DNA of 64,000 bases from a virus. How positions within the stretch are numbered: position 1 is the stretch's first letter; each line of letters opens with the position of its first letter. The stretch is taken from positions 1 to 64,000 of IMG/VR virus record IMGVR_UViG_3300043775_000410. The stretch is one strand, 5' to 3'. Of the stretch, positions 19,957-45,977 are shown piece after piece. The notes beneath the pieces are model-generated. The model made no database searches. It saw nothing but the letters and a program-made list of their open reading frames with translations, and was not told the DNA's origin. Position numbers and translations under genes: made by a program.

Positions 19957-20972
19957 GATATCTATTAGTAGACGCTGCAAATACATTTTTCCGTGCCCGA
20001 CACAGTGCCCATCGTCAAAGTGACACATGGGATAAGTTAGGCTTTGCTATCCACGTTACTTTAGCGTCAGTGAATAAAGCGTGGCGAGATCAACGAGCAG
20101 ATCATGTAGTATTCTGTTTTGAAGGCCGTAGTTGGCGCAAGGACTTTTATACTCCATATAAAGCTAATCGTGCAGTAGCACGTGCGGCTAAGACTGAATT
20201 GGAGCAAGAAGAAGAACAAATGTTCTGGGATGCCTTTGACACACTTAAAGTGTTTATTACTGAAAGAACTAATTGCACTGTTCTACGCCATGAGAACTTA
20301 GAAGCAGATGATCTTATTGCCGGTTGGATACAAACACACCCAACTGATCATCACACTATTGTATCAAGCGACACAGACTTCTATCAACTGTTAAGTAATA
20401 ATGTTAATCAATATAACGGTATTGCAGATGAATTACACACGCTTACTGGTATTTACGATAAGAAAGGTAAACTTGTTATAGACAAGAAAACTAAAGAGCC
20501 TAAGAAGATTCCGGATCCCAAGTTCATCTTGTTTGAAAAGTGTATGCGTGGTGATCCTACAGATAATATCTTTAGTGCTTATCCAGGTGTGCGCACTAAA
20601 GGCACTAAGAACAAAGTTGGCTTAGAAGAAGCCTACAGCGACAAAGACAAGCAGGGGTATGCTTGGAATAACCTAATGCTACAACGCTGGACTGATCATA
20701 ACGGTGATGAACATCGTGTGTTAGATGACTATAATCGTAATGTTACTTTAGTAGACCTAGCGGCACAGCCTAAAGAGTATAAACTTATGATAGAAGAAAC
20801 TATCAAAGCTAATGCAACTGCACTTAATCGTCCTATGGTAGGTGCGCAGTTCTTAAAGTTCTGCGGCAAGTATGACCTAGTTAAACTAAGCGACAATGCC
20901 AGCAACATGGCAGAATGGATGTGTGCTAGTTATCCTGCGCAAGCAGTAACATTGTATCATTTAATTAATTAG
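19953..20972 (+). CDS. rnh: 5'-3' exonuclease / RNase H (FEN-type, T4 rnh-like)
   Basis: 339 residues. It removes RNA primers and flaps at lagging-strand junctions. FEN-family acidic motifs are present: LLVDAANTFFRAR near the N-terminus, NLEADDLIAGW at about 110-120, IVSSDTDFYQLL at about 130, and RGDPTDNIF, the Asp-rich H3TH entry. The length matches T4 RNase H (305) plus a short insert. ATGA overlap with the previous gene. It probably works with the polymerase and clamp encoded upstream. Confidence 0.85.
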   Translation: MRYLLVDAANTFFRARHSAHRQSDTWDKLGFAIHVTLASVNKAWRDQRADHVVFCFEGRSWRKDFYTPYKANRAVARAAKTELEQEEEQMFWDAFDTLKVFITERTNCTVLRHENLEADDLIAGWIQTHPTDHHTIVSSDTDFYQLLSNNVNQYNGIADELHTLTGIYDKKGKLVIDKKTKEPKKIPDPKFILFEKCMRGDPTDNIFSAYPGVRTKGTKNKVGLEEAYSDKDKQGYAWNNLMLQRWTDHNGDEHRVLDDYNRNVTLVDLAAQPKEYKLMIEETIKANATALNRPMVGAQFLKFCGKYDLVKLSDNASNMAEWMCASYPAQAVTLYHLIN

Positions 20973-20982
20973 AAAGTAAATT

Positions 20983-21567
20983 TTGATAGATAAATCACAG
21001 AAGTTTTTAGCGTTAGACTTAGAATTAAACCAACCCAGTGGTAAGATCATTCAGGTTGGTATTGCCATTGGCAGTGCCAATGATAAGTTTGAAAATTACA
21101 TAACTAAGAAATGGTATATCGATCCAAACGAGCCGATTGATCAATTTATTATCGATTTGACTGGTATTACTGATCACGATATTAGATTAAACTGTGTAAG
21201 TCATGCTACAGTTGCACGTGAACTCAGTGACTTAATCAAACAACATAACACTTGGATCAACCCAATCACTTGGGGTGGCGGTGACAGTAGAGAACTGTTA
21301 GATGAGTTCTGTAAAAACTATGCAGACTTTCCACACTTCGGTCGTCGTTGGATTGATTGTAAAACGTTCTATACGTTTATGATGTTTGCACGTGGCAAGA
21401 ATCCTAGTGGCGGGCTTGCTAGTGCTATGGGCACGTTTAAACTACAGTTCAAAGGCACAGCGCACAGAGCAGACATTGATGCAGTTAATACTCTCGCACT
21501 ATTCTTTAAGTTCTTAGAGCGACAACGTGGGCTTGAAAACTTATTACATGATGCAAAAAGTATTTGA
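20983..21567 (+). CDS. DEDDh 3'-5' exonuclease
   Basis: 194 residues, TTG start 11 bases after rnh. Exo I: LALDLELNQPSGKIIQVGIAIG with the DxE pair; LTGITDHDI is typical of RNase T / epsilon-type nucleases; Exo II Asp lies in WGGGDSRELL; Exo III is HRADIDAVNTL with His and Asp. It may trim DNA or RNA in replication or nucleotide recycling. The next promoter overlaps its stop. Confidence 0.8.
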   Translation: MIDKSQKFLALDLELNQPSGKIIQVGIAIGSANDKFENYITKKWYIDPNEPIDQFIIDLTGITDHDIRLNCVSHATVARELSDLIKQHNTWINPITWGGGDSRELLDEFCKNYADFPHFGRRWIDCKTFYTFMMFARGKNPSGGLASAMGTFKLQFKGTAHRADIDAVNTLALFFKFLERQRGLENLLHDAKSI

Positions 21568-21592
21568 CTTTTTGGCTAATCAATGGTATAAT
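21564..21592 (+). promoter_or_regulatory. Sigma70-type promoter for queD
   Basis: TTGACT (21564-21569), 17-base spacer, perfect TATAAT (21587-21592), 73 bases before the queD start at 21665. The expected transcript start falls on about 21599. Confidence 0.75.
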
Positions 21593-21597
21593 ATATT

Positions 21598-21668
21598 ATG
21601 AAGAAAGGACAGAGGAAACAAAACAAAAAATGAGGATTAGTCAATTAAAAAGGTGGGAAAGAAAATGA
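21598..21668 (+). other. Two tiny overlapping leader frames before queD
   Basis: ATG 21598 opens 11 codons (MKKGQRKQNKK) ending TGA at 21633; that stop overlaps ATG 21630, which opens 12 codons (MRISQLKRWERK) ending TGA at 21668; that stop overlaps the queD ATG at 21665. Two ATGA junctions in series suggest translational coupling into queD. Both peptides are very basic. Chance is possible in so short a stretch. Confidence 0.3.
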
Positions 21669-22522
21669 TAAAAAGTTCAATGTTTTTAGGTGATACTACT
21701 AATGTAGATCACGCATATATTAATAACTTAGGTGATATAGTCGGCGGGTCATACCGACCAAAGTTTACCGTAACTGGTAAAGTAGATCCTGTAGAAAAGG
21801 TAGTAGTTGATTTTTCTACCGTTAAAAAGTCTCTTAAAGCAGCAATTGATGATACCGAAGATGGATTCGATCATAAGCTATGGTGGATTGAAGGAGAATC
21901 TCTAGGAAATATTACATTTACCGGTGCCACTGTATCGATTGTGACTCCAAAAGTTAAAATTTACGGACCAAAGAATATTGTTAAAGTAGTTACCAGTTCA
22001 ACTAGTTTCAATGACTATTGTTTATCGGCGCTACAGAAAAAGCATCCAACTGTTGATATTGAGTTAGAAACCGTTCTAACTACTAATTTTGATATAATGC
22101 CACAACTGAACTCTATGCCACACATGTTTAGATATGTACATGGATTAAAAGAATCTACATCGTGGGGGTGTCAAAATATTGGTCACGGACATTTAAGTTA
22201 TATCGCAGCCAATACTACAAACACGTTAGCAACTGATTTATTATTAGCAGAAATTGCTCGAGACTTAGATGGCGTAATCTTTGCGTGGGCAGATAACATG
22301 CCTACTGAAAATTTAATCGAATATCATTGTGGGCGCGGTCCGATGAGTATGGAATTTGTAGGAGATGTAAAACTAGTCAAACTTACTACAGAAACTACTG
22401 TCGAATTCTTAGTAGATTATGTTATAGATAGATACGAACATCAACTAAAACAAGCAGGGGTTACTATCCTGTTCGTTTCAGAGGGATTAAGTAAAGGCGC
22501 CTGCAGAGGTATAAATGTCTAA
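21665..22522 (+). CDS. queD: 6-carboxytetrahydropterin synthase-like protein (QueD, phage type)
   Basis: 285 residues, about twice bacterial QueD (about 120), as if two T-fold units were joined. The first half has VDHAYINN, GGSYRPKFTVTGKVDP, VVVDFSTVKKSLK and FDHKLWW, matching QueD's SYxVxVTVxGxxD...VxDFxxLK...DHxxLN order. The second half has WGCQNIGHGHLSY (Cys plus HGH metal/catalytic pattern) and a C-terminal VSEGLSKGA (the conserved Glu). It turns dihydroneopterin triphosphate into 6-carboxytetrahydropterin for QueE. AAGGTGG precedes the ATG at 21665; the GTG at 21653 overlaps this site. Confidence 0.72.
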   Translation: MIKSSMFLGDTTNVDHAYINNLGDIVGGSYRPKFTVTGKVDPVEKVVVDFSTVKKSLKAAIDDTEDGFDHKLWWIEGESLGNITFTGATVSIVTPKVKIYGPKNIVKVVTSSTSFNDYCLSALQKKHPTVDIELETVLTTNFDIMPQLNSMPHMFRYVHGLKESTSWGCQNIGHGHLSYIAANTTNTLATDLLLAEIARDLDGVIFAWADNMPTENLIEYHCGRGPMSMEFVGDVKLVKLTTETTVEFLVDYVIDRYEHQLKQAGVTILFVSEGLSKGACRGINV

Positions 22523-22595
22523 ACTAAACGTAACAGTAGACCGCATTGACTGGTGGGAAACTCCTAAGTCACGCAGTACTTTTATTAGAGGCTAA
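22515..22595 (+). CDS. Tiny protein, 26 aa, between queD and the DUF3307 gene
   Basis: ATG at 22515 overlaps the queD stop by 8 bases, with AGAGGT upstream; the TAA ends 2 bases before the next ATG. It fills exactly the only gap here, which argues it is real. Sequence contains a DRIDWWETPKSRS core; function unknown. Confidence 0.5.
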   Translation: MSKLNVTVDRIDWWETPKSRSTFIRG

Positions 22596-22597
22596 TT

Positions 22598-22963
22598 ATG
22601 ACTACTACTGTCTTTATCTTACTAGCATTATTTGGCATTAAGCACTTTATCGCTGACTTCCTAATGCAATATGACTACATGCTCAGAGAGAAAGGTATAT
22701 ATGGTGCAGAAGGTGGATTGCATCACGCGGCAGTACATGCGGCACTTACTTTATTCATTCTTGTGTTCTTTGCGCACAGTGCTAATGCTATTATTCTTCT
22801 TGCTCTAGCAGATGGAGTTATTCATTATCACATTGATTGGGCTAAACAACAACTAAATCGAGGCTTAACCACAGCAGATCACATGTTTTGGGTTTGGATG
22901 GGTGCCGATCAAGGCCTGCATTACTTAACATATATAGGAATTATCTATGTCGGAACAGTATAA
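22598..22963 (+). CDS. DUF3307-like membrane protein, 121 aa
   Basis: Hydrophobic segments at about residues 1-20, 43-58, 60-72 and 104-118. The pattern KHFIADFLMQYDYM, then LHHAAVHA, HYHIDWAKQQL and DQGLHYLTYI matches the His/Asp-rich membrane family DUF3307, whose function is unknown. The 3' end overlaps the next gene by 17 bases. Confidence 0.7.
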   Translation: MTTTVFILLALFGIKHFIADFLMQYDYMLREKGIYGAEGGLHHAAVHAALTLFILVFFAHSANAIILLALADGVIHYHIDWAKQQLNRGLTTADHMFWVWMGADQGLHYLTYIGIIYVGTV

Positions 22964-23513
22964 ACGTTTCTGTGAATTTGAAAAAACCTGCGCCAGCGCG
23001 GCTAATTGTGATGGACCAACTCTTACATTGTTAGCACGAACTATTGTAAAAAACAAGTGTTGGGTTGTTGAAAGTGATGGTACTAAAGTAGCTACTATAC
23101 TTGCTAACGATGGTAATAGTGGTGTTACCTTAGTACACGACGGACAAAGAGAACGGTTTGGTAGTTTAAAACTCCTAAGCGACCGTTACAATATTGTCAT
23201 TGACAAAACTAAGGTAGCCAAGTTAGTTAAAGAATCACATGAGGTATATGGATATCCCTGTGAAAATAAACCACAGAATGCTTTATGGGACGTACAACAT
23301 AAGTTGCCAGTGTTTACTAAAGGTAGCAAAAGTAAGAGTTTCTTCTGTGCCGGTTATTATATTATACAATTTAATAACGGGTGGGTTAAGAGTTACTGTC
23401 CTAAGTTAATTACACTTAATAGATATCCATATCAAGGCCCATTTAACACACAAGAAGAAATGCAAATACAGTTAAGATTAGCAAATGGGGGTCACGATGG
23501 AGAATCAACTTAG
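22947..23513 (+). CDS. Conserved phage protein, 188 aa
   Basis: No named domain. The C-terminal part (ALWDVQHKLPVFTKGSKSKSF, split by FCAGYYIIQFNNGW and LITLNRYPYQGPF) is a pattern I associate with marine T4-like phages. Several Cys residues could bind metal. Function unknown. Confidence 0.65.
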   Translation: MSEQYKRFCEFEKTCASAANCDGPTLTLLARTIVKNKCWVVESDGTKVATILANDGNSGVTLVHDGQRERFGSLKLLSDRYNIVIDKTKVAKLVKESHEVYGYPCENKPQNALWDVQHKLPVFTKGSKSKSFFCAGYYIIQFNNGWVKSYCPKLITLNRYPYQGPFNTQEEMQIQLRLANGGHDGEST

Positions 23514-23718
23514 TCTACACTTAAAGGCGTTTAATAATCGCGTTAAAGTAATGAATCAAACTAACAGCAAAGATCTAACATTATCTGCTGCAGATGTTAG
23601 AAATCTACATAACGATATATTCGAACTACTAGCGCAGATTGCGGCCCTAACTGCAATTAAAGAAGCCGAAGAAGCAGAAGCTGTACTTAAAGTTGAAATG
23701 GATGGTGGCGGATTCTAG
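23497..23718 (+). CDS. Small helical protein, 73 aa
   Basis: The frame opens at 23485 but the ATG at 23497 follows a GGGGGT ribosome site and is preferred. Mostly helical with a likely coiled coil (ELLAQIAALTAIKEAEEAEAVL) and a Gly-rich end. Overlaps the previous gene by 17 bases. Confidence 0.6.
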   Translation: MENQLSLHLKAFNNRVKVMNQTNSKDLTLSAADVRNLHNDIFELLAQIAALTAIKEAEEAEAVLKVEMDGGGF

Positions 23719-23768
23719 CAATTATATATGTAGTTAATTGGCATAAATAAACATAGTAAGGATACTTT

Positions 23769-24056
23769 ATGTCAAGACCAAAGCCAACAGTACTGTTAGA
23801 GCACGTCAACAAAACAAATTACAAGAGTGATCAGATTCTGGATTCAGAAGGCATCTGGGCAGTTTTCTTTGATAACCAACCAATCAATCTAAAAACACAA
23901 AATATACTTGTAGCCTACCCTGGTCCAAAGTATAAGAAAGTAAGTTTTAGTAATCCTGGTCACGCAATTAATCTCGCTAAAAAACTCAATGTGCTGTTTA
24001 AGTCAGACAAGTTTTCAGTTGTGCTACTTAAAGCAGGCGATACCATCTACCCATAA
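23769..24056 (+). CDS. Hypothetical phage protein, 95 aa
   Basis: Mixed alpha/beta, basic, no motif recognised. It follows a 50-base gap holding a CATAAATA box (23742-23749) and a TAAGGA ribosome site. It lies 2 bases before the next start. Confidence 0.6.
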   Translation: MSRPKPTVLLEHVNKTNYKSDQILDSEGIWAVFFDNQPINLKTQNILVAYPGPKYKKVSFSNPGHAINLAKKLNVLFKSDKFSVVLLKAGDTIYP

Positions 24057-24058
24057 TC

Positions 24059-24403
24059 ATGTCACGTGCCGAATCTTTGCAGTCAATTTGGCAAACAAAG
24101 TTCTACGAGTTAACTCCGTACTCAGTAAGTCCTAGTAGTTGGTGGTATAACCCAACTAATCATAACAGTTTGCGTTTGGTCCAAAAGGCCTATTTAGAAG
24201 TGCGTAAACACATTAAATTCTACAAGTTTGAACTAAGTCACGATATACGTCCTAAAACGTTTGTACAGCTAGAGCGTTGGTTTAAGGAGCCTTATTACGT
24301 GCAGAATCGCAAGACTATACACATTGTCAGTGATCGTGACGCAATGATGCTAAGTCTACACGCAAACAATCTACAACAATATTTAGATAACCAATCACTT
24401 TGA
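24059..24403 (+). CDS. Hypothetical phage protein, 114 aa
   Basis: The pattern SWWYNPTNHNSLRL and KTFVQLERWFKEPYY looks like a conserved small protein family of T4-like phages. No catalytic motif is evident. A promoter begins at 24404, right after its stop. Confidence 0.6.
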   Translation: MSRAESLQSIWQTKFYELTPYSVSPSSWWYNPTNHNSLRLVQKAYLEVRKHIKFYKFELSHDIRPKTFVQLERWFKEPYYVQNRKTIHIVSDRDAMMLSLHANNLQQYLDNQSL

Positions 24404-24432
24404 TTGACTTTTAGCTATATTTGTGTTATACT
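24404..24432 (+). promoter_or_regulatory. Sigma70-type promoter
   Basis: TTGACT (24404-24409), 17-base spacer, TATACT (24427-24432). It drives the two small exported proteins at 24467 and 24767. Confidence 0.75.
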
Positions 24433-24466
24433 TGCTGTGTAATAAATAAAATTTAAGGAGTAACAC

Positions 24467-24754
24467 ATGAAGAAGCTATTACTAGCAACACTGTTATTAT
24501 CACTTAGCACTACTGCAGCCGCAGATGGCTATTACAACCGACACTATCGGGGCAACGGTAATGACGTATTACTTCCATTAATTGTTGGCGGCACCTTGGG
24601 TTATATTATTGCACAACCGCGTACCATAGTACAACCACAGTATGTACCGCTACCAAGTTATGTTCCAGCTAACAACGAACCAATCTACCAATATCAGAAC
24701 ATTTATGATGGTAATTGTGCTTGTTATCATCGAGTTTTAGTTCAAATCAACTAA
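24467..24754 (+). CDS. Small exported protein, 95 aa
   Basis: Signal peptide MKKLLLATLLLSLSTTAAA with a likely cut after AAA at about 19. The mature part has a glycine-rich hydrophobic stretch (LLPLIVGGTLGYIIA), then a Pro/Tyr-rich region and a CAC pair near the end. Such envelope proteins are common in bacteria; here the role may be cell-surface change or lysis help. TTTAAGGAG is a strong ribosome site. Confidence 0.7.
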   Translation: MKKLLLATLLLSLSTTAAADGYYNRHYRGNGNDVLLPLIVGGTLGYIIAQPRTIVQPQYVPLPSYVPANNEPIYQYQNIYDGNCACYHRVLVQIN

Positions 24755-24766
24755 GAAAGGACCTAT

Positions 24767-24841
24767 ATGCGGTATCTTATTGCAATGGCAGTAGTAGTTG
24801 CAGTTCTCAGTGGTTGTGCAAAATTTAATACGTGTTTTTAA
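24767..24841 (+). CDS. Tiny lipoprotein, 24 aa
   Basis: ATG at 24767 with GAAAGGA upstream. The sequence MRYLIAMAVVVAVLSGC is a complete type II signal peptide with lipobox LSGC; lipidation would leave only an 8-residue mature peptide, CAKFNTCF. It follows the exported protein gene by 12 bases under the same promoter. Compare entericidin-like and Rz1-like lipoproteins, though it is shorter than both. Confidence 0.55.
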   Translation: MRYLIAMAVVVAVLSGCAKFNTCF

Positions 24842-24881
24842 CTGTCGACACGCCTCCTCATATAATAATTCAAATTAACGA

Positions 24882-24910
24882 TTGACTTTTACCTATTAAG
24901 AGTGTATAAT
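24882..24910 (+). promoter_or_regulatory. Sigma70-type promoter for the HD-domain gene
   Basis: TTGACT (24882-24887), 17-base spacer, perfect TATAAT (24905-24910). Near-identical flanks to other promoters in the block (TTGACTTTT ... GTGTATAAT). Confidence 0.8.
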
Positions 24911-24928
24911 GGCACTTAGGAGTCAACC

Positions 24929-25459
24929 ATGTCATCATTAGTAAGCAGAGCAAGGGCATTTGCTGCACATGCGCATCGCGCAATCGATCATAAAAGAAAA
25001 TACACAGGTGAAGACTACATTGTTCACCCTGCCGAAGTTGCGGCTATTGTTGCCACTGTTCCTCACACAGACGAAATGCTCGCGGCCGCTTGGTTGCATG
25101 ACACAGTAGAAGATACTGGTGTTACTATCGAAACGATCCGTGCAGAGTTTGGCCCAATTGTGGCAATGTACGTAGCAGACTTGACCGATGTTAGTGCCGC
25201 TGCCGACGGCAACAGAGCAGTGCGCAAGGCAATTGATTTAGCACATACTGCCAAGGCCTGTGCCGATGCTAAAACAATTAAACTTGCCGACTTGCTATCA
25301 AACACTGCTAGTATTGTTGAGCATGATCCAGGCTTTGCCCGTGTGTACCTTAAAGAAAAATCAGCTATGCTTGCTGTGATGACAGATGGTGATGCAACAT
25401 TGTTGGCCCGTGCTAAAGCCACACTATCAGCAGGACTTGCTAGATTAGATGGCAAATAA
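24929..25459 (+). CDS. HD-domain ppGpp hydrolase-like protein (small alarmone hydrolase)
   Basis: 176 residues, the size of a stand-alone SpoT/MESH1-type hydrolase domain. Motifs in order: HAHRAIDHKRKYTGEDYIVHP (first His), AAWLHDTVEDTGV (HD plus ED), and IKLADLLSNTASI (Asp/Asn). These are the manganese-binding residues of RelA/SpoT-type hydrolases. It lacks a synthetase domain. It could lower (p)ppGpp and so block the host stringent response during infection; another nucleotide substrate is possible. It is the only gene in its promoter unit and looks G+C-richer than its neighbours, suggesting recent transfer. Confidence 0.8.
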   Translation: MSSLVSRARAFAAHAHRAIDHKRKYTGEDYIVHPAEVAAIVATVPHTDEMLAAAWLHDTVEDTGVTIETIRAEFGPIVAMYVADLTDVSAAADGNRAVRKAIDLAHTAKACADAKTIKLADLLSNTASIVEHDPGFARVYLKEKSAMLAVMTDGDATLLARAKATLSAGLARLDGK

Positions 25460-25462
25460 CGG

Positions 25463-25491
25463 TTGACATTTTGGTAAAATGACTGTATAAT
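25463..25491 (+). promoter_or_regulatory. Sigma70-type promoter
   Basis: Perfect TTGACA (25463-25468), 17-base spacer, perfect TATAAT (25486-25491). Starts 3 bases after the HD gene stop; drives the genes at 25525 and 25935. Confidence 0.8.
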
Positions 25492-25524
25492 GTTACACAT
25501 ACACTAACAACACAGGAGCAATAA

Positions 25525-25935
25525 ATGGCTTATATTAGCGCACAAGATGTTAAGGCAATACGTGATGAACTTAAAGCAACTTTTCCTAAATTCAAGTTTG
25601 GTGTACGTAAAGGTTATGCGGGTAGTTCAGTTGACGTAACTATTAAACAAGGCCCAGTTGACTTTGCTGAAGTGTTTGACGATGGTCATTTGCCTACTAA
25701 ACGTAAATATGTTCAAATCAACGAATACCATTTAGACTTCTACGGCAAGTACGAAGCGTTCTTTGAACAAGTATTAGAAATTATCAAGTGTGCTCCGGCT
25801 CGTGCTGGTGGTCGTGCTTGGTTTGATAAAAGTGATTCGCAAATAGATTATTTCCATATTGCCTATTACATTCATTTAAACGTAGGTGAGTGGGATGAGC
25901 CATATACCTGCACAAAAGAAAAGGAGTTTGCATAA
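25525..25935 (+). CDS. LPD29-like protein, 136 aa
   Basis: The N-terminal half (VKAIRDELKATFPKFKFGVR, then SSVDVTIKQGP) fits the LPD29 domain, a small fold known from polyvalent proteins of phages and mobile elements. The rest has many aromatic residues. Proposed roles for such domains are in counter-defence, unproven here. TAATG junction with the next gene; CAGGAGC ribosome site. Confidence 0.6.
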   Translation: MAYISAQDVKAIRDELKATFPKFKFGVRKGYAGSSVDVTIKQGPVDFAEVFDDGHLPTKRKYVQINEYHLDFYGKYEAFFEQVLEIIKCAPARAGGRAWFDKSDSQIDYFHIAYYIHLNVGEWDEPYTCTKEKEFA

Positions 25936-26099
25936 TGAGTAAAAATTTACAACGTATTTTAATTTCAATAATGTTAATCATCGGTTATGTAACATTAGGA
26001 TTACTTGGTGAGAATGGTTCGATGCTACATGAACTATTGGGTAACTTTGCTGTCGGTTGGGTAGTTTGGGAAATTGCCACAGGTATTGTTGGTGATTAA
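25935..26099 (+). CDS. Small membrane protein, 54 aa
   Basis: ATG overlaps the previous TAA (TAATG) after AAGGAG. Two hydrophobic stretches, about residues 7-24 and 36-52, suggest two membrane helices with a short polar loop. Function unknown. The next promoter begins 8 bases after the stop. Confidence 0.65.
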   Translation: MSKNLQRILISIMLIIGYVTLGLLGENGSMLHELLGNFAVGWVVWEIATGIVGD

Positions 26100-26106
26100 T
26101 CAGCAC

Positions 26107-26135
26107 TTGACAAAACAAGAATTTGGTAGTATAAT
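26107..26135 (+). promoter_or_regulatory. Sigma70-type promoter for the MoxR-like gene
   Basis: Perfect TTGACA (26107-26112), 17-base spacer, perfect TATAAT (26130-26135). The unit ends at the terminator at 27278-27300. Confidence 0.85.
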
Positions 26136-26173
26136 CTGTTTTGTTACATTTAATAATTAATTAGGAGCTACAC

Positions 26174-27271
26174 ATGGCGGCAATGACTGAAAATAGAACT
26201 GTTACAGCAACAGAAGCAAAGGCGGCAATTTTACGTTGCTTTACAAAACAACGCCCATTATTTTTATGGGGTCCTCCAGGTATTGGTAAAAGTGAATTAG
26301 TAGAAGGTATTACTAAAGACATGGGCGGGTTGATGATTGACTTGCGCTTGGCACAGATGGATCCGACAGACATACGTGGTATTCCTTACTTTAACAAAGA
26401 CTTGGGCGTGATGGATTGGGCTCCGCCAATTGATTTGCCCACAGAAGAAATGGCTGCACAATATCCGATTGTGGTGTTGTTTTTAGATGAGATGAACAGT
26501 GCAGCGCCAAGTGTGCAGGCAGTTGCTTATCAACTTGTATTGAACAGACGTGTGGGCAAGTATAAACTACCTGATAACGTTGTGTTGGTAGCGGCAGGTA
26601 ACAGGGACGGTGACAAAGGTGTTAGCTACAGAATGCCAAGTCCACTTGCTAACAGGTTTGTGCATTTGGAAATGCGTGTAGACTTTGATAGCTGGTTACA
26701 ATGGGCTACTGAAAATCGCATTAACAAAGACGTTATTGGTTACATTAGTTTTGCTAAACAAGATTTGTATGACTTTGATCCAAAAAGTTCAAGTCGTAGT
26801 TTTGCAACACCTCGTAGCTGGACGTTTGTTAGTGAGTTGTTAGACGACGGCATGGCAGACGGCACTACTACAGATATTGTAGCAGGTACTATTGGTGAAG
26901 GTACTGCTGTTAAGTTTATGGCACATAGAAAAATTTCTGCTAAAATGCCTAACCCAACAGACATTTTAAACGGTAAGGTTACAGAACTTGCTGTTAAAGA
27001 AATTAGTGCTATGTACAGTTTGACAATGAGTATGTGTTACGAATTGAAAGATGCGTACACTAAGATTGGCAAGGAAGACAATGCTAAATGGCATACTATG
27101 GCAGATTACTTCTTTAAGTTTATGATGGAAAACTTTACAACAGAAGTTACTGTTATGGGCGCACGTGTAGCGTTAACAACTTTTAACTTGCCGTTTGTGC
27201 CTAACAAGTTGAAAAACTTTGATGAGTTCCACAAACGCTTTGGCAAGTACGTAGTAGCGGCAGTAGCATAA
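26174..27271 (+). CDS. MoxR-family AAA+ ATPase
   Basis: 365 residues. Walker A is LWGPPGIGKSELVEG at about 33-47; Walker B is VVLFLDEMNSA at about 100; a sensor-like VLVAAGNRDGD follows, then an Arg-rich stretch (MPSPLANRFVHLEM) typical of MoxR proteins. MoxR ATPases act as chaperones, usually with a VWA-domain partner. Such a partner is encoded at 27676, with a small gene and a terminator between. GGAGC ribosome site; own promoter and terminator. Confidence 0.88.
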   Translation: MAAMTENRTVTATEAKAAILRCFTKQRPLFLWGPPGIGKSELVEGITKDMGGLMIDLRLAQMDPTDIRGIPYFNKDLGVMDWAPPIDLPTEEMAAQYPIVVLFLDEMNSAAPSVQAVAYQLVLNRRVGKYKLPDNVVLVAAGNRDGDKGVSYRMPSPLANRFVHLEMRVDFDSWLQWATENRINKDVIGYISFAKQDLYDFDPKSSSRSFATPRSWTFVSELLDDGMADGTTTDIVAGTIGEGTAVKFMAHRKISAKMPNPTDILNGKVTELAVKEISAMYSLTMSMCYELKDAYTKIGKEDNAKWHTMADYFFKFMMENFTTEVTVMGARVALTTFNLPFVPNKLKNFDEFHKRFGKYVVAAVA

Positions 27272-27277
27272 TAGAGG

Positions 27278-27300
27278 AAAAGCCCCGCAAGGGGCTTTTT
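27278..27300 (+). terminator. Rho-independent terminator
   Basis: AAAAGCCCC (27278-27286), GCAA loop, GGGGCTTTT (27291-27299) and a further T. A 9-bp stem with a stable GNRA-type loop and T-run, 6 bases after the MoxR-like stop. Confidence 0.92.
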
Positions 27301-27307
27301 ATATTCG

Positions 27308-27619
27308 ATGAGTGATTTCAAAATAACTAAGATGGATCGTAGACATACTGGTCACGAACTGTTTAATCATTATATAAATTATAATGTTTATGTTCGACGT
27401 GGGTTTAGTAATATATCATCCAACGAATTAAATTTTCTCAAACACCGTGTTTGGTTTTGGGAGAAGTTTGGTCCAAGTGCCGAACTTGGTAAGTGTCATC
27501 GAATAAACAGTCTTACCCACCAAACCCCAAAGTGGGCCTGGCAAACTGAACACAATCTATTAAGAATCTATGTAACAGAAGAAGCATTGGCATTCTTTAC
27601 CTTGGCACACAGCACTTGA
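27308..27619 (+). CDS. Hypothetical protein, 103 aa
   Basis: Rich in aromatic and His residues, no motif known. It starts 8 bases after the terminator and lacks a promoter of its own, so it would need readthrough. The next promoter overlaps its stop. Confidence 0.5.
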   Translation: MSDFKITKMDRRHTGHELFNHYINYNVYVRRGFSNISSNELNFLKHRVWFWEKFGPSAELGKCHRINSLTHQTPKWAWQTEHNLLRIYVTEEALAFFTLAHST

Positions 27620-27644
27620 CAAACACTACATTTGAATGTATAAT
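27616..27644 (+). promoter_or_regulatory. Sigma70-type promoter for the VWA-protein unit
   Basis: Perfect TTGACA (27616-27621), 17-base spacer, perfect TATAAT (27639-27644). Confidence 0.85.
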
Positions 27645-27675
27645 AGCTGTTATAGTAAACAATTAGGAGCAGATA

Positions 27676-28941
27676 ATGGCAACAGCAACAACTAGCGCAG
27701 AAAAGAAAAAAGTTGTAACAGTAACAGACGCACGTATTGATGCGGCTGTACGTGAAAAACTTATTACGGCACGTATTGCGCTATTGCTTAAAGCGCCGTT
27801 TTTTGGTAACTTAGCAACACGCTTAAAATTAGTTAACGCTGATGAGTGGTGTAGTACTGCGGCTACAGACGGACGTAATTTTTACTATAACAGTGAATTT
27901 GTAAACAAACTGCCACAGAAACAAGTGGAGTTTTTAGTTGGGCATGAAGTGTTGCATGTAGTTTACGATCACATGGGACGTAGACAAGATAGAGATGCGC
28001 AATTGTATAACGTTGCGGCAGACTATTGTGTTAATGCTGATTTAATTAACAGCAAGATCGGTGAGAAAATTACAAGTGTGCCGATTTTGTATGATAAAAA
28101 ATACGCAGGTTTGAGCTCGGAAGAAGTGTATGACTTACTGTATGAAAATGCTGAAAAAATTAACGTTAATGATTTGCTTAAACAATTGTTAGACGAGCAT
28201 TTAGATGACGGCGATGACGACAGCGAAGAAGGTGAAGGCGAGGGTGAAGGCGGACGTCCGGGTAAGATGACTGCTGAAGAAAAGAAAGCATTGCGTGACG
28301 AAATACGTGAAGCTGTACTACAAGCGGCAGAAGCTGCAGGTGCAGGTAATTTGCCAATGGGTGTTAAACGTTTGATTAACAAGCTAACAAACCCACAACT
28401 AAACTGGCGTGAACTAATTAGACAACAGGTACAGAGTTTAGTACGTGCTGACTTTACTTGGGCACGTATGAATAGAAAAGGACAACATTTAGATGCAATT
28501 TTGCCAGGTAGCAACTTTGCAGAAACAATTGACGTTAGTGTTAGTATTGATGCGTCGGGCAGTATGAGTGAAGGTATGTTGCGTGATATCTTAAGTGAAG
28601 TTAAAGGTATTATGGAGGCGTTTGACGACTTTAAACTTGATGTATGGTCATTTGATACAGATGTTTATGGTTACGAAAAATTCACGCCAGACAACATTGA
28701 CGACATTGACACTTACGAATTACAAGGTGGCGGCGGCACAGACTTTGAATGTAACTGGGAATTTATGCGTGAAAATGAAATTGCGCCAAAATTGTTTATT
28801 ATGTTTACAGATGGTTACCCAGGTGGTGGTTGGGGTGACGAGAGTTACGCAGACACATTATTTGTAATACACGGTACTACTAGTATTGAAGCACCATTTG
28901 GTATTACAGCTTATTATGATTTATCAAAAGGATCCAATTAA
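27676..28941 (+). CDS. VWA-like protein with metallopeptidase domain (MoxR partner)
   Basis: 421 residues. The N-terminal domain has VGHEVLHVVYDHMGRR at about 95-110 with the HExxH signature and an acidic/Asn-rich follow-up, the DUF2201 metallopeptidase-like layout. An acidic linker (about 177-190, many Asp/Glu/Gly) leads to a VWA-like domain with SIDASGSMSEG at about 292-302, the metal-site DxSxS. Such proteins are client-binding partners of MoxR ATPases. Paired with the gene at 26174, each under its own promoter. Substrate unknown. Confidence 0.85.
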   Translation: MATATTSAEKKKVVTVTDARIDAAVREKLITARIALLLKAPFFGNLATRLKLVNADEWCSTAATDGRNFYYNSEFVNKLPQKQVEFLVGHEVLHVVYDHMGRRQDRDAQLYNVAADYCVNADLINSKIGEKITSVPILYDKKYAGLSSEEVYDLLYENAEKINVNDLLKQLLDEHLDDGDDDSEEGEGEGEGGRPGKMTAEEKKALRDEIREAVLQAAEAAGAGNLPMGVKRLINKLTNPQLNWRELIRQQVQSLVRADFTWARMNRKGQHLDAILPGSNFAETIDVSVSIDASGSMSEGMLRDILSEVKGIMEAFDDFKLDVWSFDTDVYGYEKFTPDNIDDIDTYELQGGGGTDFECNWEFMRENEIAPKLFIMFTDGYPGGGWGDESYADTLFVIHGTTSIEAPFGITAYYDLSKGSN

Positions 28942-29276
28942 TGTCAGTATATCAAAGTTTTAGTTATAGTCCTACAGAGTTAGCAGAGCAAATGTCTAGT
29001 GCTACACACGACACACTTGCTTATCTATGGAAGTACAAATACATCACCACCGAACAGTATAATGAATTGTCAGGTAAAATAATGGTTATGGCTGTGCCAA
29101 ACCGTAAAGGGTTTGGTAAGAAATTGTTAGAATACTTCTTTGGTGATAATAAAGAAGAGAATTCTTGGGTTTTTCCTATTGTGGAAGTAGCAACCCACTA
29201 TAGACCTGCTACTCCAGAAAAGCCAAAGAATGTAACTCGACTTAAAACCAAACCTAAGTTAGAGGTGGTTGAGTAA
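28941..29276 (+). CDS. Hypothetical protein in the VWA unit, 111 aa
   Basis: TAATG junctions on both sides. No motif; a helical N-terminal half and a Lys/Pro-rich end. Co-translated with the VWA-like gene, so perhaps a helper of it. Confidence 0.6.
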   Translation: MSVYQSFSYSPTELAEQMSSATHDTLAYLWKYKYITTEQYNELSGKIMVMAVPNRKGFGKKLLEYFFGDNKEENSWVFPIVEVATHYRPATPEKPKNVTRLKTKPKLEVVE

Positions 29277-29722
29277 TGGCCTTAGGTTGGGATGATGTAC
29301 AGCGTATGAAACGTGTAGAAGCTCGAGCAGAAGAGCTTGGGTTTAAGTTTTCTTCTTCAGCTAATTATAACTATGGTGCTAACAACATTATAAGTTATAT
29401 CTGTTTAAAACCTAAGGAAGATTGTTTACCACACTACAGTCGTGATGCCGATATCTTTATAGGTACACTTGAGGAGATCAATACCTGGTTAACTGGCGTT
29501 GAATGGGCTCGCGGCTACGAAGAGATGCTTAAACTTGGCAATGATAAGAAACGTAAGGAAAAAGAACAAGTCGAACGTAATCGGCAATTACTACGCACCA
29601 TTAAAACTGGTCGTGAAGTTAAAGGCACTGTCGGATGTACCAGTGTTGACGAATGGCGCTTGCATCTTGAAGAAGAGTACGATATTGACGACGAAGTTGA
29701 TTACAGTGCAATACCATTTTAG
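29276..29722 (+). CDS. Hypothetical protein, 148 aa
   Basis: Acidic and Lys-rich, with a helical segment RKEKEQVERNRQLLRTI and a C-terminal DEWRLHLEEEYDIDDEVDY. No family recognised. In the same unit as the VWA-like gene, 10 bases before the HIT gene. Confidence 0.6.
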   Translation: MALGWDDVQRMKRVEARAEELGFKFSSSANYNYGANNIISYICLKPKEDCLPHYSRDADIFIGTLEEINTWLTGVEWARGYEEMLKLGNDKKRKEKEQVERNRQLLRTIKTGREVKGTVGCTSVDEWRLHLEEEYDIDDEVDYSAIPF

Positions 29723-29732
29723 GAAAAATACA

Positions 29733-30206
29733 ATGACAAAAGTAATGACTATGACAAAAATAATTGAATCATTGCCCTATGAATTAAGCGAATGTACACC
29801 CGAACAAGCACCGTGGACTACATTAGTAGAAGAAGACTTTCACATTGCTATTTTTAAAGATGGCTTTCCTGTCAGCTACGGGCACCTGCTGTTTGTGCCT
29901 AAGTATAATACCGTAGATGTGTTAGCCGACGCAGTAGCTGATGCCATTGCGCAAGGACAACGTATGGTTGCCGAAGGTAACTGTGATGGATATAACATTG
30001 GCATTAATGTTGGTGAAGCGGCCGGACAAACAGTTGCTTGGCCACATGTACATATGATTCCTCGACGCACAGGCGATGTCACTGATCCGCGCGGCGGTGT
30101 GCGTAATGTTATTCCTCATTTGGGTAATTACAAGAGTAAAGGATACGGTGATGCCTACGACGAAGTAAATAAATGGTATGGTGGGTTTGATGATGCTAGA
30201 GACTAG
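29733..30206 (+). CDS. HIT-family nucleotide hydrolase/transferase
   Basis: 157 residues. The frame is open from 29499, but the ATG at 29733 follows AGGAAAAATACA. The HIT motif is WPHVHMIPRR (HxHxxP), preceded by GYNIGINVGEAAGQTV, which is the standard layout of HINT/HIT hydrolases, and FPVSYGHLLFVPK matches the N-terminal strand. Such enzymes cleave nucleoside phosphoramidates or dinucleotides. The phage role is unknown. Confidence 0.85.
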   Translation: MTKVMTMTKIIESLPYELSECTPEQAPWTTLVEEDFHIAIFKDGFPVSYGHLLFVPKYNTVDVLADAVADAIAQGQRMVAEGNCDGYNIGINVGEAAGQTVAWPHVHMIPRRTGDVTDPRGGVRNVIPHLGNYKSKGYGDAYDEVNKWYGGFDDARD

Positions 30207-30210
30207 ATAA

Positions 30211-30501
30211 ATGCTCAAACATAATGAACCCAATCCCTTAAACGTACACGGGCTAAGACAGCTTAGTCATTGCCCGCCTCACTTTACTCCTGTGATATTC
30301 GATCTTGCTGTACAAGATAAAGACCTAGTTGATTGGCTGTATGAAAACTTAGAAGGACGTTTTTATTCTGGACAAATTGACGTTAGACAAGAGTCTGGTG
30401 TTATCGCACGTCAGCAATGTATTGCATTTGAACAATCCTCTGAAGCGAGCTATTTCGCAATTATGCTACCCACAATTAATGAATCAACTATTATGTGGTA
30501 A
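30211..30501 (+). CDS. Hypothetical protein, 96 aa
   Basis: Starts 4 bases after the HIT gene stop. Mixed alpha/beta, no motif. Possibly translated with the HIT gene. Confidence 0.6.
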   Translation: MLKHNEPNPLNVHGLRQLSHCPPHFTPVIFDLAVQDKDLVDWLYENLEGRFYSGQIDVRQESGVIARQQCIAFEQSSEASYFAIMLPTINESTIMW

Positions 30502-30562
30502 TAAAATATTTCCACCTGTTTAGACCATGGTAAATAAAGTTATCCCAAGGAGAACTTTTTTA

Positions 30563-30814
30563 ATGGCCAAAGCAGAAACAACCGCAACAGAAAATTCAAC
30601 GCCTGTTGAATCTAACGAAACACAACAACCACAAGCCCCAAATTTAACACTACAAGACTTAGTTCTTGTGGCACAAATCATCCAACTTACCTCACAACGC
30701 GGCGCATACAAAGCCGAAGAGTTAGCCAACGTTGGTACGTTATACAATAAATTAATTGCATTTTTAGACAGCGTTGGTGCAATTTCTAAATCAGAAACTG
30801 CTGCACAGGAGTAA
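30563..30814 (+). CDS. Conserved phage protein, 83 aa
   Basis: The ATG at 30563 follows a perfect AAGGAG; the earlier frame (30527) has no site. N-terminus is low-complexity (Thr/Glu/Gln/Pro), then a helical domain NLTLQDLVLVAQIIQ...SQRGAYKAEELANVGTLYNKL, a pattern I associate with T4-like marine phages. Function unknown. Confidence 0.65.
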   Translation: MAKAETTATENSTPVESNETQQPQAPNLTLQDLVLVAQIIQLTSQRGAYKAEELANVGTLYNKLIAFLDSVGAISKSETAAQE

Positions 30815-30818
30815 TACT

Positions 30819-31493
30819 ATGATTAAGCACGTAGGCAGACATAATAACAAGCGAGTTGTTATTGCATATAGACAAGTACCAGATGAAGATCACATGTGTT
30901 TAGTGATCTACAGTGAAACATTACCCATGCGTATACATGATGAAGTAATGAAAGTATTAGAAAGCGACATCGGTCAGCAAGCAAACGATTTTGCTGATGC
31001 ACTATTCCGTCATACTATGGCAGATGGTGTTAATTGCTTAAACGCAATTCACCGTGGCGGACTATTATCCAAAGTACCAACTAACCAAGTTATTGTAACT
31101 CCAACTTCAGCTAGTTCAGTACGCTTAGATGAATTAAACACACTATTAAATGAAATTGCCAAAGGCGCAGAAGCTACTGAAAAACTAGCTAAAACAGACG
31201 CAGGACAAAGATGGGAAGGTAGAGATCTAGGCGAACCTGCTAAAACTACAGCGGCAAGTGTTAATACGGATGGCGTGTTGTCTGATGCTGATATTGCAAA
31301 TCAACGTTTAGCACAGGCTACTAAAATGGAAGCAGAAGCTAAGAGTTTGTTAGCAGAAGCAAAACGTTTAAAAGAAGAAGCAAACGCACTAGCACCTAAG
31401 GTAACTAAGGCAAAAGCAACTACAAGTACAACAACTCCTACGAAGAAAACAAATGCCAGAAAACCTACCACAACCAAAAAAGCCGCGGCGTAA
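30819..31493 (+). CDS. Conserved phage protein with Ala/Lys/Thr-rich tail, 224 aa
   Basis: The ATG at 30819 (ACAGGAG upstream) is used; an earlier in-frame start at 30774 lies inside the previous gene. Residues 1-125 have the conserved-looking RHNNKRVVIAYRQVPDEDHM, then VPTNQVIVTP and SSVRLDELNTLL. Residues about 165-205 are a coiled coil, followed by a Thr/Lys/Ala tail suggestive of DNA or protein contact. Function unknown. Confidence 0.65.
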   Translation: MIKHVGRHNNKRVVIAYRQVPDEDHMCLVIYSETLPMRIHDEVMKVLESDIGQQANDFADALFRHTMADGVNCLNAIHRGGLLSKVPTNQVIVTPTSASSVRLDELNTLLNEIAKGAEATEKLAKTDAGQRWEGRDLGEPAKTTAASVNTDGVLSDADIANQRLAQATKMEAEAKSLLAEAKRLKEEANALAPKVTKAKATTSTTTPTKKTNARKPTTTKKAAA

Positions 31494-31809
31494 ATCAACC
31501 CCTGGCAAGAAAGTCAACATGAATGTTAAGAAACGTTGGCAAGATATTGTCAGAGACGTTGATAAAAAGGAAGTGCCAGTTACCGTGCTACAGCGTATTA
31601 TTGTTAAGCTCGTTGACGGCACTGACCTTAGTATCGATGTTAAACAATTACTTGAAGACGGGCAAGATCCTGACGACATTGAAGATTTGCTTAATGCTAA
31701 ATTTCACGACCTTGACGAATATATAGAAACTGTTGACTTCTTTATCGACCTCGATAAAGTAGTTGGCGCTGTTCAACCTGAGACCGACAAGGTACTAAAG
31801 AATCTATGA
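31453..31809 (+). CDS. Conserved phage protein, 118 aa
   Basis: Overlaps the previous gene by 41 bases. A Lys/Pro-rich N-terminus is followed by an acidic domain (VLQRIIVKLVDGTDLSIDV, then DPDDIEDLL). Met23 is an alternative start without overlap. Function unknown. Confidence 0.6.
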   Translation: MPENLPQPKKPRRKSTPGKKVNMNVKKRWQDIVRDVDKKEVPVTVLQRIIVKLVDGTDLSIDVKQLLEDGQDPDDIEDLLNAKFHDLDEYIETVDFFIDLDKVVGAVQPETDKVLKNL

Positions 31810-32309
31810 TTATATCAATTTTAGCTTCGACTAATACCGGTGGTATTGGTAATCGTGGTACCTTGCCTTGGCCATACAACAAGGAAGATATGAGTTGGTT
31901 TGTTCGACATACTACAGGCAACATTGTAGTCATGGGTCGTAATACCTGGGATGATCCTAAGATGCCCAAACCATTGCCCAATCGTGAAAACTATGTAGTC
32001 AGTAGTCGACACGTAGCACAACAATATCAACACTTGGTTAAATGGATTCCTAGTAACCCTGTAGATAATATCTTACAGATACAGCAGGATAATCCATCCA
32101 AAGATGTGTATGTTATTGGTGGTCAAAAATTATACGAAGCAACAGAAAGTATAGTCGATAGAGTATTGCTTACACGTGTCAAAGGTGCATGGTTCACTGA
32201 CACTCGTGTTCAGTTAGACAGCATGCTGGCTTGTTTTCAAATCAAATCAGTAACACCCGGTAATAATTGCACCTACGAAACGTGGGATCGTGTAATGTTT
32301 TTTAAATAA
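31806..32309 (+). CDS. folA: Dihydrofolate reductase
   Basis: 167 residues. Regenerates tetrahydrofolate using NADPH, needed because thymidylate synthase consumes it. ISILASTNTGGIGNRGTLPWP holds the usual N-terminal core (GIG, then PW), NIVVMGRNTWDDP the NADPH-site strand, and VYVIGGQKLYE the GG-loop. ATGA junction with the previous gene. ThyA lies one gene downstream, and dCMP deaminase is at 42166. Confidence 0.92.
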   Translation: MIISILASTNTGGIGNRGTLPWPYNKEDMSWFVRHTTGNIVVMGRNTWDDPKMPKPLPNRENYVVSSRHVAQQYQHLVKWIPSNPVDNILQIQQDNPSKDVYVIGGQKLYEATESIVDRVLLTRVKGAWFTDTRVQLDSMLACFQIKSVTPGNNCTYETWDRVMFFK

Positions 32310-33004
32310 TGAAAATATTAATTGCAGGTGATAGTTGGGGCTGCGGTGAATGGGGTTGGGATTCCAACAAACGTAAATGGAAAGACGGTGATAAACATGA
32401 TGAGTCGTACATTATCACCCATCGTGGACTAGAGTATTATCTAATAGAAATAGGCCACGATGTTACTAATATTTCTTGTGGGGGTGCATCTAATAAAGAA
32501 ATATTAGTAAAACTGCACCGACTAGAGTTACAATGCTACGATCATATTATATGGTTCCAAACTGATCCTATCCGTGATCTTCGCCCGTATAGCGATAAAT
32601 TAGTTGATACGTTTGACAATTTACTTACTAAACAGAATAGTCTAATAGAGAGTACCTACCAAACATTAAATTCGTTTGATAAAAAAATTATATGCTTGGG
32701 CGGATGTAGCAAATTAAATTTAAACTTAATTAAACAATATACAAATTTATCGCCTGTTATTCCTAGCATACCCGAATTGTTAATGCCTACTTTTATTCAT
32801 CCTAAAATTTGGTTTTCGGACTGGATTGATCAATCTTGGCGGCATTTTGATGTTGACAGTTTAGATAATCTAGTATATAATAAAACATTACAAGATTCAA
32901 TTTTTGACAATGAAGAATTATTTTGGCCCGACGGAAGACATCCAAATCGTCATGCCCACCGAAAACTTTTTGAATATTTAATTACACATGAAAATCTATC
33001 TTAA
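32309..33004 (+). CDS. SGNH/GDSL-hydrolase-like protein
   Basis: 231 residues, TAATG start. Block I is IAGDSWGCGEWG; CGGASNKE gives the Gly/Asn block; WPDGRHPNRHAH near the C-terminus gives Asp and His. All four blocks of an SGNH enzyme are visible, with no signal peptide. Wedged between folA and thyA, which are probably functionally unrelated. Substrate unknown. Confidence 0.65.
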   Translation: MKILIAGDSWGCGEWGWDSNKRKWKDGDKHDESYIITHRGLEYYLIEIGHDVTNISCGGASNKEILVKLHRLELQCYDHIIWFQTDPIRDLRPYSDKLVDTFDNLLTKQNSLIESTYQTLNSFDKKIICLGGCSKLNLNLIKQYTNLSPVIPSIPELLMPTFIHPKIWFSDWIDQSWRHFDVDSLDNLVYNKTLQDSIFDNEELFWPDGRHPNRHAHRKLFEYLITHENLS

Positions 33005-33821
33005 CGCATTAAAATTTGTTTTAGAAAACGGCACAATAAGACCAGATCGTACATCAACTGGCACAATTGGCATATTTGGTATGCAACAACGCTATGACTT
33101 GAGCAAGGGCTTTCCGGCCGTGACTACCAAAAAACTAGCGTTCAAAGCCTGTCTCAGTGAGTTGTTGTGGTTTATTGAAGGTTCAGGTGATGAAAATCGC
33201 CTACGAGAGTTATTACATGGTAGTAGGGACTCTGAAAAGAGTACCATCTGGACTGCCAATGCTACAGCAACTTACTGGACACCCAAAGCTAAATTTGCCG
33301 GAGACCTAGGTCGTGTCTATGGTGTACAGTGGCGCGACTTTGGGGGAGTAGACCAACTACTGCAATTAGTAGAAGGCATTAAGCAAGATCCATACGGTCG
33401 TAGACATATCCTGACAGCATGGAATCCAGGCGAGTTAGATCAAATGGCCTTACCTCCATGTCATTGTTTTGCACAGTTTTACGTCAGTGCAGATAATAAG
33501 TTGTCGTGTCAAATGTATCAGCGATCATGCGATATGTTCTTAGGAGTTCCTTTTAACATAGCGTCCTACAGCCTGCTAACGCATATGGTAGCCCAAGTGT
33601 GCGGACTTGGAGTAGGCGAATTCGTTCACGTTCTTGGTGATGCCCACATATATTTGAATCATGTAGATCAGGTAAACGAACAACTGCAACGTGAACCATT
33701 ACCTGCACCACAACTTTGGATTAATCCAGACGTTACTGACATAAATCACTTTACTATGAAGGACTTTGCACTCAATGGCTATGAATCACTCGCAAGCATT
33801 AAAGCACCAATGGCAGTCTAA
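32988..33821 (+). CDS. thyA: Thymidylate synthase
   Basis: 277 residues, full length. Makes dTMP from dUMP with methylene-tetrahydrofolate. RPDRTSTGT holds the dUMP-phosphate Arg; LPPCHCFAQF holds the catalytic Cys; CQMYQRSCDMFLGVPFNI and HVLGDAHIYLNH complete the active site. The start overlaps the previous gene by 17 bases. Confidence 0.96.
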   Translation: MKIYLNALKFVLENGTIRPDRTSTGTIGIFGMQQRYDLSKGFPAVTTKKLAFKACLSELLWFIEGSGDENRLRELLHGSRDSEKSTIWTANATATYWTPKAKFAGDLGRVYGVQWRDFGGVDQLLQLVEGIKQDPYGRRHILTAWNPGELDQMALPPCHCFAQFYVSADNKLSCQMYQRSCDMFLGVPFNIASYSLLTHMVAQVCGLGVGEFVHVLGDAHIYLNHVDQVNEQLQREPLPAPQLWINPDVTDINHFTMKDFALNGYESLASIKAPMAV

Positions 33822-34101
33822 AAAGCCCGATACTCATCGTGTCCGCTTGTATAAAGATGAAATACATTTAAATGAAGTAACTACCATGCATCCAAATCAA
33901 ATATTTTGGCAAGTGGCTAACAAGTTTAAAGAAACTCCACTGGCTAAATGGGTAGATGAAAACGATATAGAAATTAAATGGGCAGAAGATGATCATTATC
34001 TGTCATGGCACAAGGTTATGATGATCTATGCTGATTTAACAGAACGACAATACGTAGATTATAGTCTACGATTTTTTGTACATCAAGCGGAGTGGAAATA
34101 A
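33775..34101 (+). CDS. Conserved phage protein, 108 aa
   Basis: Overlaps the thyA end by 47 bases. The ATG at 33775 is 11 bases after AAGGA; the ATG at 33781 and a TTG at 33766 are alternatives. Contains MHPNQIFWQVANKFKETPLAKW and ERQYVDYSLRFF, helical, with no assigned function. Confidence 0.6.
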   Translation: MAMNHSQALKHQWQSKKPDTHRVRLYKDEIHLNEVTTMHPNQIFWQVANKFKETPLAKWVDENDIEIKWAEDDHYLSWHKVMMIYADLTERQYVDYSLRFFVHQAEWK

Positions 34102-34262
34102 TGGCATCACTTAAAGATTTAGTTAAAGCTGCATTAGAAAAGAAACAAGCAGAACAAAACATTACTCATACCGACTTAACTGTTGATACTGGCAAGGGCG
34201 CACCCAAGGGTAAAGTTACTAGTAACAAGCCTACTAAAAAATCAGCGGGCCGCGGTAGATGA
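34101..34262 (+). CDS. Small basic protein, 53 aa
   Basis: ATG on the preceding TAA (TAATG) and TGA on the next ATG (ATGA), so it fills the gap exactly. A helical start (LKDLVKAALEKKQAEQ) and a Lys/Gly/Arg-rich end suggest nucleic-acid contact. Confidence 0.65.
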   Translation: MASLKDLVKAALEKKQAEQNITHTDLTVDTGKGAPKGKVTSNKPTKKSAGRGR

Positions 34263-42173: not shown

Positions 42174-42588
42174 CTAATTTAGTTACTTCCACACCCGAGT
42201 TCTTAAGGAAAACAATTCCGCTATCATCGCGATAGTTAGTGGCGTAGTAAACTCTACGTATACCGGCTTGGTATATGAGCTTGGCACAATCAAGGCAAGG
42301 ACTATGTGTAACAAACAAGTCAGCATCTAGTCCAGACTCGACACTTCTCGCCAGTTTTGCAATTGCGTTTGTTTCTGCATGTAACACCTCCGGCTTAGTT
42401 TTAATCGTGCCATCCTCTAGTTCCTGTTCGCAGTTGTTGTCCCAACCTTTGGGCATACCGTTGTAGCCAATTGAGATAATCCTGTCATCTTTAACAACAA
42501 GTGCGCCCACTTTAAGTCTACGGGCTGTGCTTAGTTCAGCGTAGATATGTGCGGCCTGCATGTGTGCTGTTTGATGTTTAGGTTTCAT
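42166..42588 (-). CDS. cd: dCMP deaminase
   Basis: 140 residues. Zinc motifs HAETNAIAKLA (HAE) and SPCLDCAKLIYQAG (PCxxC) of the cytidine/deoxycytidylate deaminase family. Makes dUMP for ThyA, so it belongs functionally with the plus-strand folA and thyA, although it sits in the glycan/radical-SAM operon. Overlaps both neighbours. Confidence 0.93.
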   Translation of the reverse strand: MKPKHQTAHMQAAHIYAELSTARRLKVGALVVKDDRIISIGYNGMPKGWDNNCEQELEDGTIKTKPEVLHAETNAIAKLARSVESGLDADLFVTHSPCLDCAKLIYQAGIRRVYYATNYRDDSGIVFLKNSGVEVTKLDV

Positions 42589-45973: not shown

Positions 45974-45977
45974 TAAA

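Follow-up and report, generated by a model that had tools for sequence, protein, structure and literature searches.

The hydrolase gene and its promoter

The window analyzed here, i.e., the first 64,000 bases of the 73,160-base virus record IMGVR_UViG_3300043775_000410, carries a gene for a predicted stand-alone small alarmone hydrolase (SAH). It extends on the plus strand from an ATG start codon at position 24929 to position 25459, is preceded on the same strand by a Shine-Dalgarno-like AGGAG (24918 to 24922, 6 nt 5' of the ATG, by direct reading), and encodes 176 amino acids that were assigned to the SpoT/MESH1-type SAHs of the HD_4 family by profiles, alignment, structural model, and tree. 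The open reading frame (ORF) is a genuine gene under purifying selection. Its pairwise dN/dS is 0.16 (36 pairs among nine sequences, one from the window and the others from eight close relatives), compared with 0.05 to 0.19 for six neighboring genes, and this value indicates that the enzyme has been maintained, with no sign of rapid adaptive change.

Pfam HD_4 matches residues 8 to 130 above the cut-off (E = 6e-16), and phrog_990, "metal-dependent phosphohydrolase," matches with E = 7e-38. Together with an alignment to MESH1 over 166 residues, the HD_4 match indicates a single RelA/SpoT-type HD hydrolase domain spanning the whole protein; the NCBIfam model spoT_relA matches with its hydrolase part only, at a score below its cut-off. 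The closest PDB chains by sequence are the hydrolase domains of Rel/RelA, MESH1, and bacterial SAHs, and the alignment yields a complete set of residues at the catalytic positions of Rel and MESH1 (R23, K24, H33, H57, D58, E61, D62, D121, and N125), the roles being assigned according to the MESH1 and Rel residues that we take to be catalytic. All except R23, which is kept in at least 90% of the sequences, are invariant across 23 viral homologues, and by alignment and conservation the catalytic residues of HD1 to HD6 are intact. In a second set of homologues (n = 14, named phages included), the D62 position is variable. The best-scoring homologue from a named phage, TPWB-08 (L036, 4001 to 4525), has VEAT in place of VEDT and no acidic residue equivalent to D62, an exchange suggesting that this protein may be inactive or changed in substrate.

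An AlphaFold2 model built from 23 sequences (mean pLDDT, 94.9; pTM, 0.90) has as its top Foldseek matches Drosophila and human Mesh1, a Pseudomonas aeruginosa SAH, and Corynebacterium glutamicum RelH; the structural search lists consist mostly of HD-domain proteins, and families outside them are not thereby excluded. In fold and active site the model resembles MESH1/HDDC3 (3nr1 and 5vxa; 28 to 29% identity), and VIA-align superposes it on human MESH1 with a Z score of 23.5 and an rmsd of 1.9 over 166 residues, while the hydrolase domains of long Rel/SpoT proteins score lower. On sequence and model, the window protein is almost certainly a stand-alone HD 3'-pyrophosphohydrolase of the SAH class, presumably dependent on Mn. 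An earlier reading of the window from its letters only (the sequence-only reading) had stated that all HD-hydrolase motifs of SpoT/MESH1 are present, with which the profile matches and the aligned catalytic positions agree, and that no synthetase accompanies them. The latter was upheld by a search with the RelA_SpoT synthetase profile PF04607, which gave no match in 10 virus records (including the whole 73,160-base record and a 218,902-base relative), some of which may be fragments, and was positive in 11 of 14 control genomes. Membership in a toxSAS toxin-antitoxin pair was rejected, as no SYNTH domain occurs in the 73-kb record or in nine related records; on this evidence, the hydrolase appears to be an orphan SAH rather than one half of such a pair.

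The gene has its own near-consensus sigma-70-type promoter, TTGACT-N17-TATAAT, at 24882 to 24910 on the plus strand (11 of 12 positions), as the sequence-only reading had also noticed. The best site 5' of the hydrolase gene scores 10 to 11 of 12 in all 17 of the closest loci (L002 to L017 plus L024, representing about 9 distinct loci), in comparison to 55 of 1,000 random 120-base pieces of the window that score 10 or more; of the 17 remaining IMG/VR loci, which are more distant, 5 have a score of at least 10. TTGACW-N17-TATAAT sites occur seven times in the window, all on the plus strand between 19.9 and 32.9 kb, versus 0.10 expected from shuffled sequences. A host-like promoter of this type is generally the sign of an early phage gene, and the host RNA polymerase is inferred to express the hydrolase gene early. 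A T4-type division into early and late genes was of no help in calling it early, since the T4-type late promoter box, the octamer TATAAATA, is absent from both strands of the window. Shuffled sequences contain it 10.3 +- 3.2 times, and TATAAATA is thus depleted in the window.

With a G+C content of 0.473, the hydrolase gene ranks first among 64 predicted genes of 100 amino acids or more (mean, 0.387; standard deviation, 0.030), the set being a greedy ORF call in which some false ORFs are possible. Its G+C content at third codon positions (GC3) is 0.350, which is rank 13 of 64 (mean, 0.304; standard deviation, 0.048). Since GC3 is unremarkable, the excess stems from codon positions 1 and 2, where G+C is raised because the protein is visibly alanine rich, alanine being encoded by GCN codons. 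The closest relatives behave likewise, with a total G+C content of the hydrolase gene above that of its locus and a low GC3. The excess thus reflects protein composition and not recent foreign DNA. The sequence-only reading's remark on a higher G+C content relative to the neighbors stands, whereas a foreign origin, at which such an excess might hint, was rejected on the rank of GC3 versus that of total G+C.

The variable slot and the spread of the family

The presence of the gene was surveyed in IMG/VR loci that carry on one stretch both the upstream gene (at 23769 or 24059) and a MoxR gene, which gave 57 loci with 20 distinct slots. The hydrolase is present in 8 and absent from 12 of these distinct slots; some loci had been fetched via the hydrolase itself, and the set without them gives 7 of 19. 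In locus L193 it is cleanly absent, the homologue of the 24467 gene being followed directly by a promoter-leader block and the homologue of the 25525 gene, while unrelated small genes occupy other slots. The MoxR identity to the window is at least 96% in all eight SAH-bearing slots and at most 92% in all SAH-lacking slots. The hydrolase gene is accordingly a lineage-specific accessory cassette in a variable slot, a situation that suits an accessory counter-defense or stress-relief gene. From these sequences, a single gain in a close phage lineage would be just as likely as frequent turnover.

The downstream edge of the cassette is marked by the consensus promoter of the next gene, TTGACA-N17-TATAAT (25463 to 25491, plus strand), and a similar promoter-leader block lies at the empty site in L193. 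Near-identical promoter-leader copies, consisting of TGTATAATGTTACACATACACTAACAACA and then a purine-rich site, precede different genes: the 25525 gene in the window (25463 to 25530), its homologue in L193 (about 4788 to 4860), a 56-amino-acid ORF in L196 (about 4340 to 4405), and the hydrolase gene itself in L013. Such shared leaders may be joints for the swapping of cassettes. The phage itself has its nearest DNA polymerase relative in Sinorhizobium phage Phosso (50.7%), and a megablast comparison of window positions 20001 to 40000 with phage records gave no match.

Beyond this lineage, tblastn detected relatives of the hydrolase in 205 of 50,697 phage records, all with identities below 60%; the carriers include SSU5, Escherichia phage Bas82, 201phi2-1, and phiKZ, and homologues from unrelated phages stand in other gene settings. 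In IMG/VR, 34 loci were retained from 39 pattern matches. A scan of bacterial genome contigs gave at least 593 matches, of which 80 were used, and provides no count of bacterial carriers. Two bacterial homologues of 448 and 395 amino acids (L042, 4995 to 6338; L049, 4956 to 6140) have a long C-terminal extension, possibly a domain fusion of the hydrolase type.

A careful tree was calculated from 46 of the 65 rows of a quick tree; omitted were L033, L034, L035, and L055, which have long branches or odd sequences, and fifteen others, near duplicates or additional rows. The window protein falls into a clade of 33 rows (bootstrap/SH-aLRT, 99/95), whose other members are viral proteins, short bacterial SAHs, and five named phage SAHs, PaSpo of SSU5 among them. 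Outside of it are eight long RSH rows and five Mesh1-type rows, the latter forming a branch of their own (99/96) without the window protein. The quick tree has the same placement with lower support. Labeled reference sequences of pbcSpo, pbcSpo2, and divSpo are not part of the trees, and MESH1 is represented there by Mesh1-type sequences from bacteria. The paSpo subgroup of SAHs reportedly goes back to Atkinson in 2011. "PaSpo-like" seems to be the best label for the window protein on tree placement, and it is not a proven subgroup because the approximately unbiased (AU) test leaves both alternatives unrejected, namely, one that joins Mesh1 to the window and viral rows (P = 0.237) and one that keeps the paSpo-like rows together without the Bacteroidota forms (P = 0.243).

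The closest known counterpart is PaSpo of Salmonella phage SSU5 (NC_018843, SSU5_099), a phage-borne stand-alone SAH that aligns with 89% of the window protein at 44.6% identity and has in common with it all catalytic positions, the DGNR and DPxFxxxYLxEK motifs, and the clade. It differs from the window protein in its length of 213 amino acids, due to an insertion and a C-terminal extension, as well as in phage type and gene neighborhood, and the reversal of toxSAS has been demonstrated for PaSpo, whereas the window enzyme is known by sequence. MESH1, by contrast, is a metazoan enzyme on a separate branch of the tree, as judged from its bacterial stand-ins. Among jumbo phages, gp325 of 201phi2-1 is 52.6% identical over 76% and the phiKZ homologue is 32.1% identical over 74%; we assume these two to be the HD-alarmone enzymes meant by Iyer et al. 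The window phage belongs to another lineage than phiKZ and 201phi2-1, and its hydrolase, unlike theirs, resides in its own promoter cassette.

Iyer et al. 2021 (PMC7824862) predicted that the HD-alarmone phosphodiesterases of jumbo phages, which are of the same HD-superfamily class and also come from large phages, are counter-nucleotide defenses. Interference with (p)ppGpp or (p)ppApp was proposed for PaAdele_032, the SAH of Pseudomonas phage Adele (PMC12846349), and a Listeria phage gene was named a possible alarmone synthetase/hydrolase (PMC12282133). Because counter-signal or metabolic roles of a phage SAH and of jumbo-phage HD-alarmone enzymes are already in print, the window hydrolase adds a further member to a known class; by sequence comparison the class is known from many other phages, and the member itself is new. 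A literature search that covered few subscription papers found no study in which a phage SAH was tested as counter-defense during infection.

The proposed role and its alternatives

We propose that the hydrolase would be made early from its own strong promoter by the host RNA polymerase and would strip the 3'-pyrophosphate groups placed by stress and defense enzymes of the host. Its targets would be tRNA CCA ends pyrophosphorylated by toxSAS enzymes, with CapRel as the anti-phage example, and (p)ppApp; (p)ppGpp would be a further or alternative substrate, and the outcome would be translation and nucleotide pools that stay usable during infection. The chemistry has precedents. PaSpo of SSU5 counteracts the toxSAS toxin FaRel2 by removing its tRNA pyrophosphate (PMC11559606), its coexpression enabled the purification of CapRel, a toxSAS that acts as an anti-phage effector (PMC9712102), and the orphan bacterial XccSAH accepts (p)ppGpp, pGpp, pppApp, and NADPH (PMC9765508). 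We give this overall picture, a PaSpo-like SAH that erases the 3'-pyrophosphates of stress and defense enzymes and so protects the infected cell, about even odds (a probability of roughly 0.5). That the gene was selected for reversing toxSAS-type products is put just short of that. A narrower version is rather doubtful, namely, that of a dedicated counter-defense cassette, switched on immediately by its host-like consensus promoter, which would repair tRNA pyrophosphorylated by toxSAS/CapRel and clear (p)ppApp before the defense halts translation, as one of several promoter-bearing genes that rotate through a fixed slot, flanked by a conserved small gene and the MoxR ATPase gene.

Several observations weigh against an eraser of defense products. 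The substrate is not deducible from the hydrolase sequence, and the grouping with Mesh1 is among the topologies left unrejected by the AU test. The SAH-bearing slots all belong to one close lineage, so that the pattern may be due to one old gain and not to frequent turnover. An arms-race signature is unsupported, as the dN/dS of the gene lies inside the range of its neighbors. A PADLOC scan of seven window proteins assigned the hydrolase to no family, by which membership in a defense system was rejected; the library contains defense and not counter-defense families.

The sequence-only reading had favored a lowering of (p)ppGpp that holds off the starvation response, and this is possible. In this case, the early enzyme would keep the stringent response from shutting down rRNA, tRNA, and nucleotide synthesis, consistent with the complete (p)ppGpp-hydrolase active site, the MESH1-like modeled fold, the hydrolysis of (p)ppGpp by XccSAH (PMC9765508), and the published hypothesis on the Adele enzyme (PMC12846349). 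However, (p)ppGpp loss helps some phages and hinders others, with many Pseudomonas putida phages and the jumbo phage Paride infecting (p)ppGpp-null cells less well (PMC12814882), and (p)ppGpp is not cleaved by a cyanophage MazG protein to which such a role had earlier been ascribed (PMC6850273). Since the effect depends on the phage, a benefit from lower ppGpp is no safe default; we regard this role as a tentative alternative and prefer the erasure of 3'-pyrophosphates from toxSAS products. MESH1-like action on NADPH or other 3'-phosphorylated nucleotides such as PAPS, feeding the nucleotide metabolism of the phage, is unlikely. The top structural matches include complexes of MESH1 with NADPH and with PAPS, XccSAH hydrolyzes NADPH and affects NADH, and the window has other metabolic genes, e.g., a DHFR-like one, but XccSAH is about 40-fold less efficient than Mesh1 on NADPH (PMC9765508), and the window protein lies outside the Mesh1-type rows of the tree. 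It is very improbable that the gene is a functionless passenger, either decayed or neutral: although the gene is dispensable for the phage group as a whole, being missing from 12 of 20 syntenic slots, and the distant TPWB-08 homologue lacks the D62-equivalent residue, the low dN/dS, the invariant catalytic residues of the viral homologues, and the promoter kept throughout the close loci argue against decay.

For the window alone, the result is an ordinary annotation. Phage SAHs are widespread yet hardly characterized, and PaSpo, in use as a tool, reverses the chemistry of an anti-phage toxin class. A phage lineage with and without the gene in an otherwise syntenic slot therefore offers a natural contrast between the defeat of toxSAS and the tuning of the stringent response.

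Other genes of the window

A tiny ORF with a lipobox-like LSGC (24769 to 24840) separates the 24467 gene from the promoter of the hydrolase. On the other side, positions 26174 to 28941 comprise a MoxR-like AAA ATPase gene, one small gene, and a DUF2201/VWA metallopeptidase-like gene, with a consensus promoter before both the ATPase gene and the metallopeptidase-like gene; PHROGs lists the latter as an HNH endonuclease, which is unsupported by Pfam. Farther downstream, epimerase-like, aminotransferase, MocA-type, and PIG-L genes stand in a run (34259 to 38822), and the minus strand carries a Nol-like carbamoyltransferase gene and several radical SAM genes (39765 to 53287). Both groups together are probably a glycan or hypermodification cluster.
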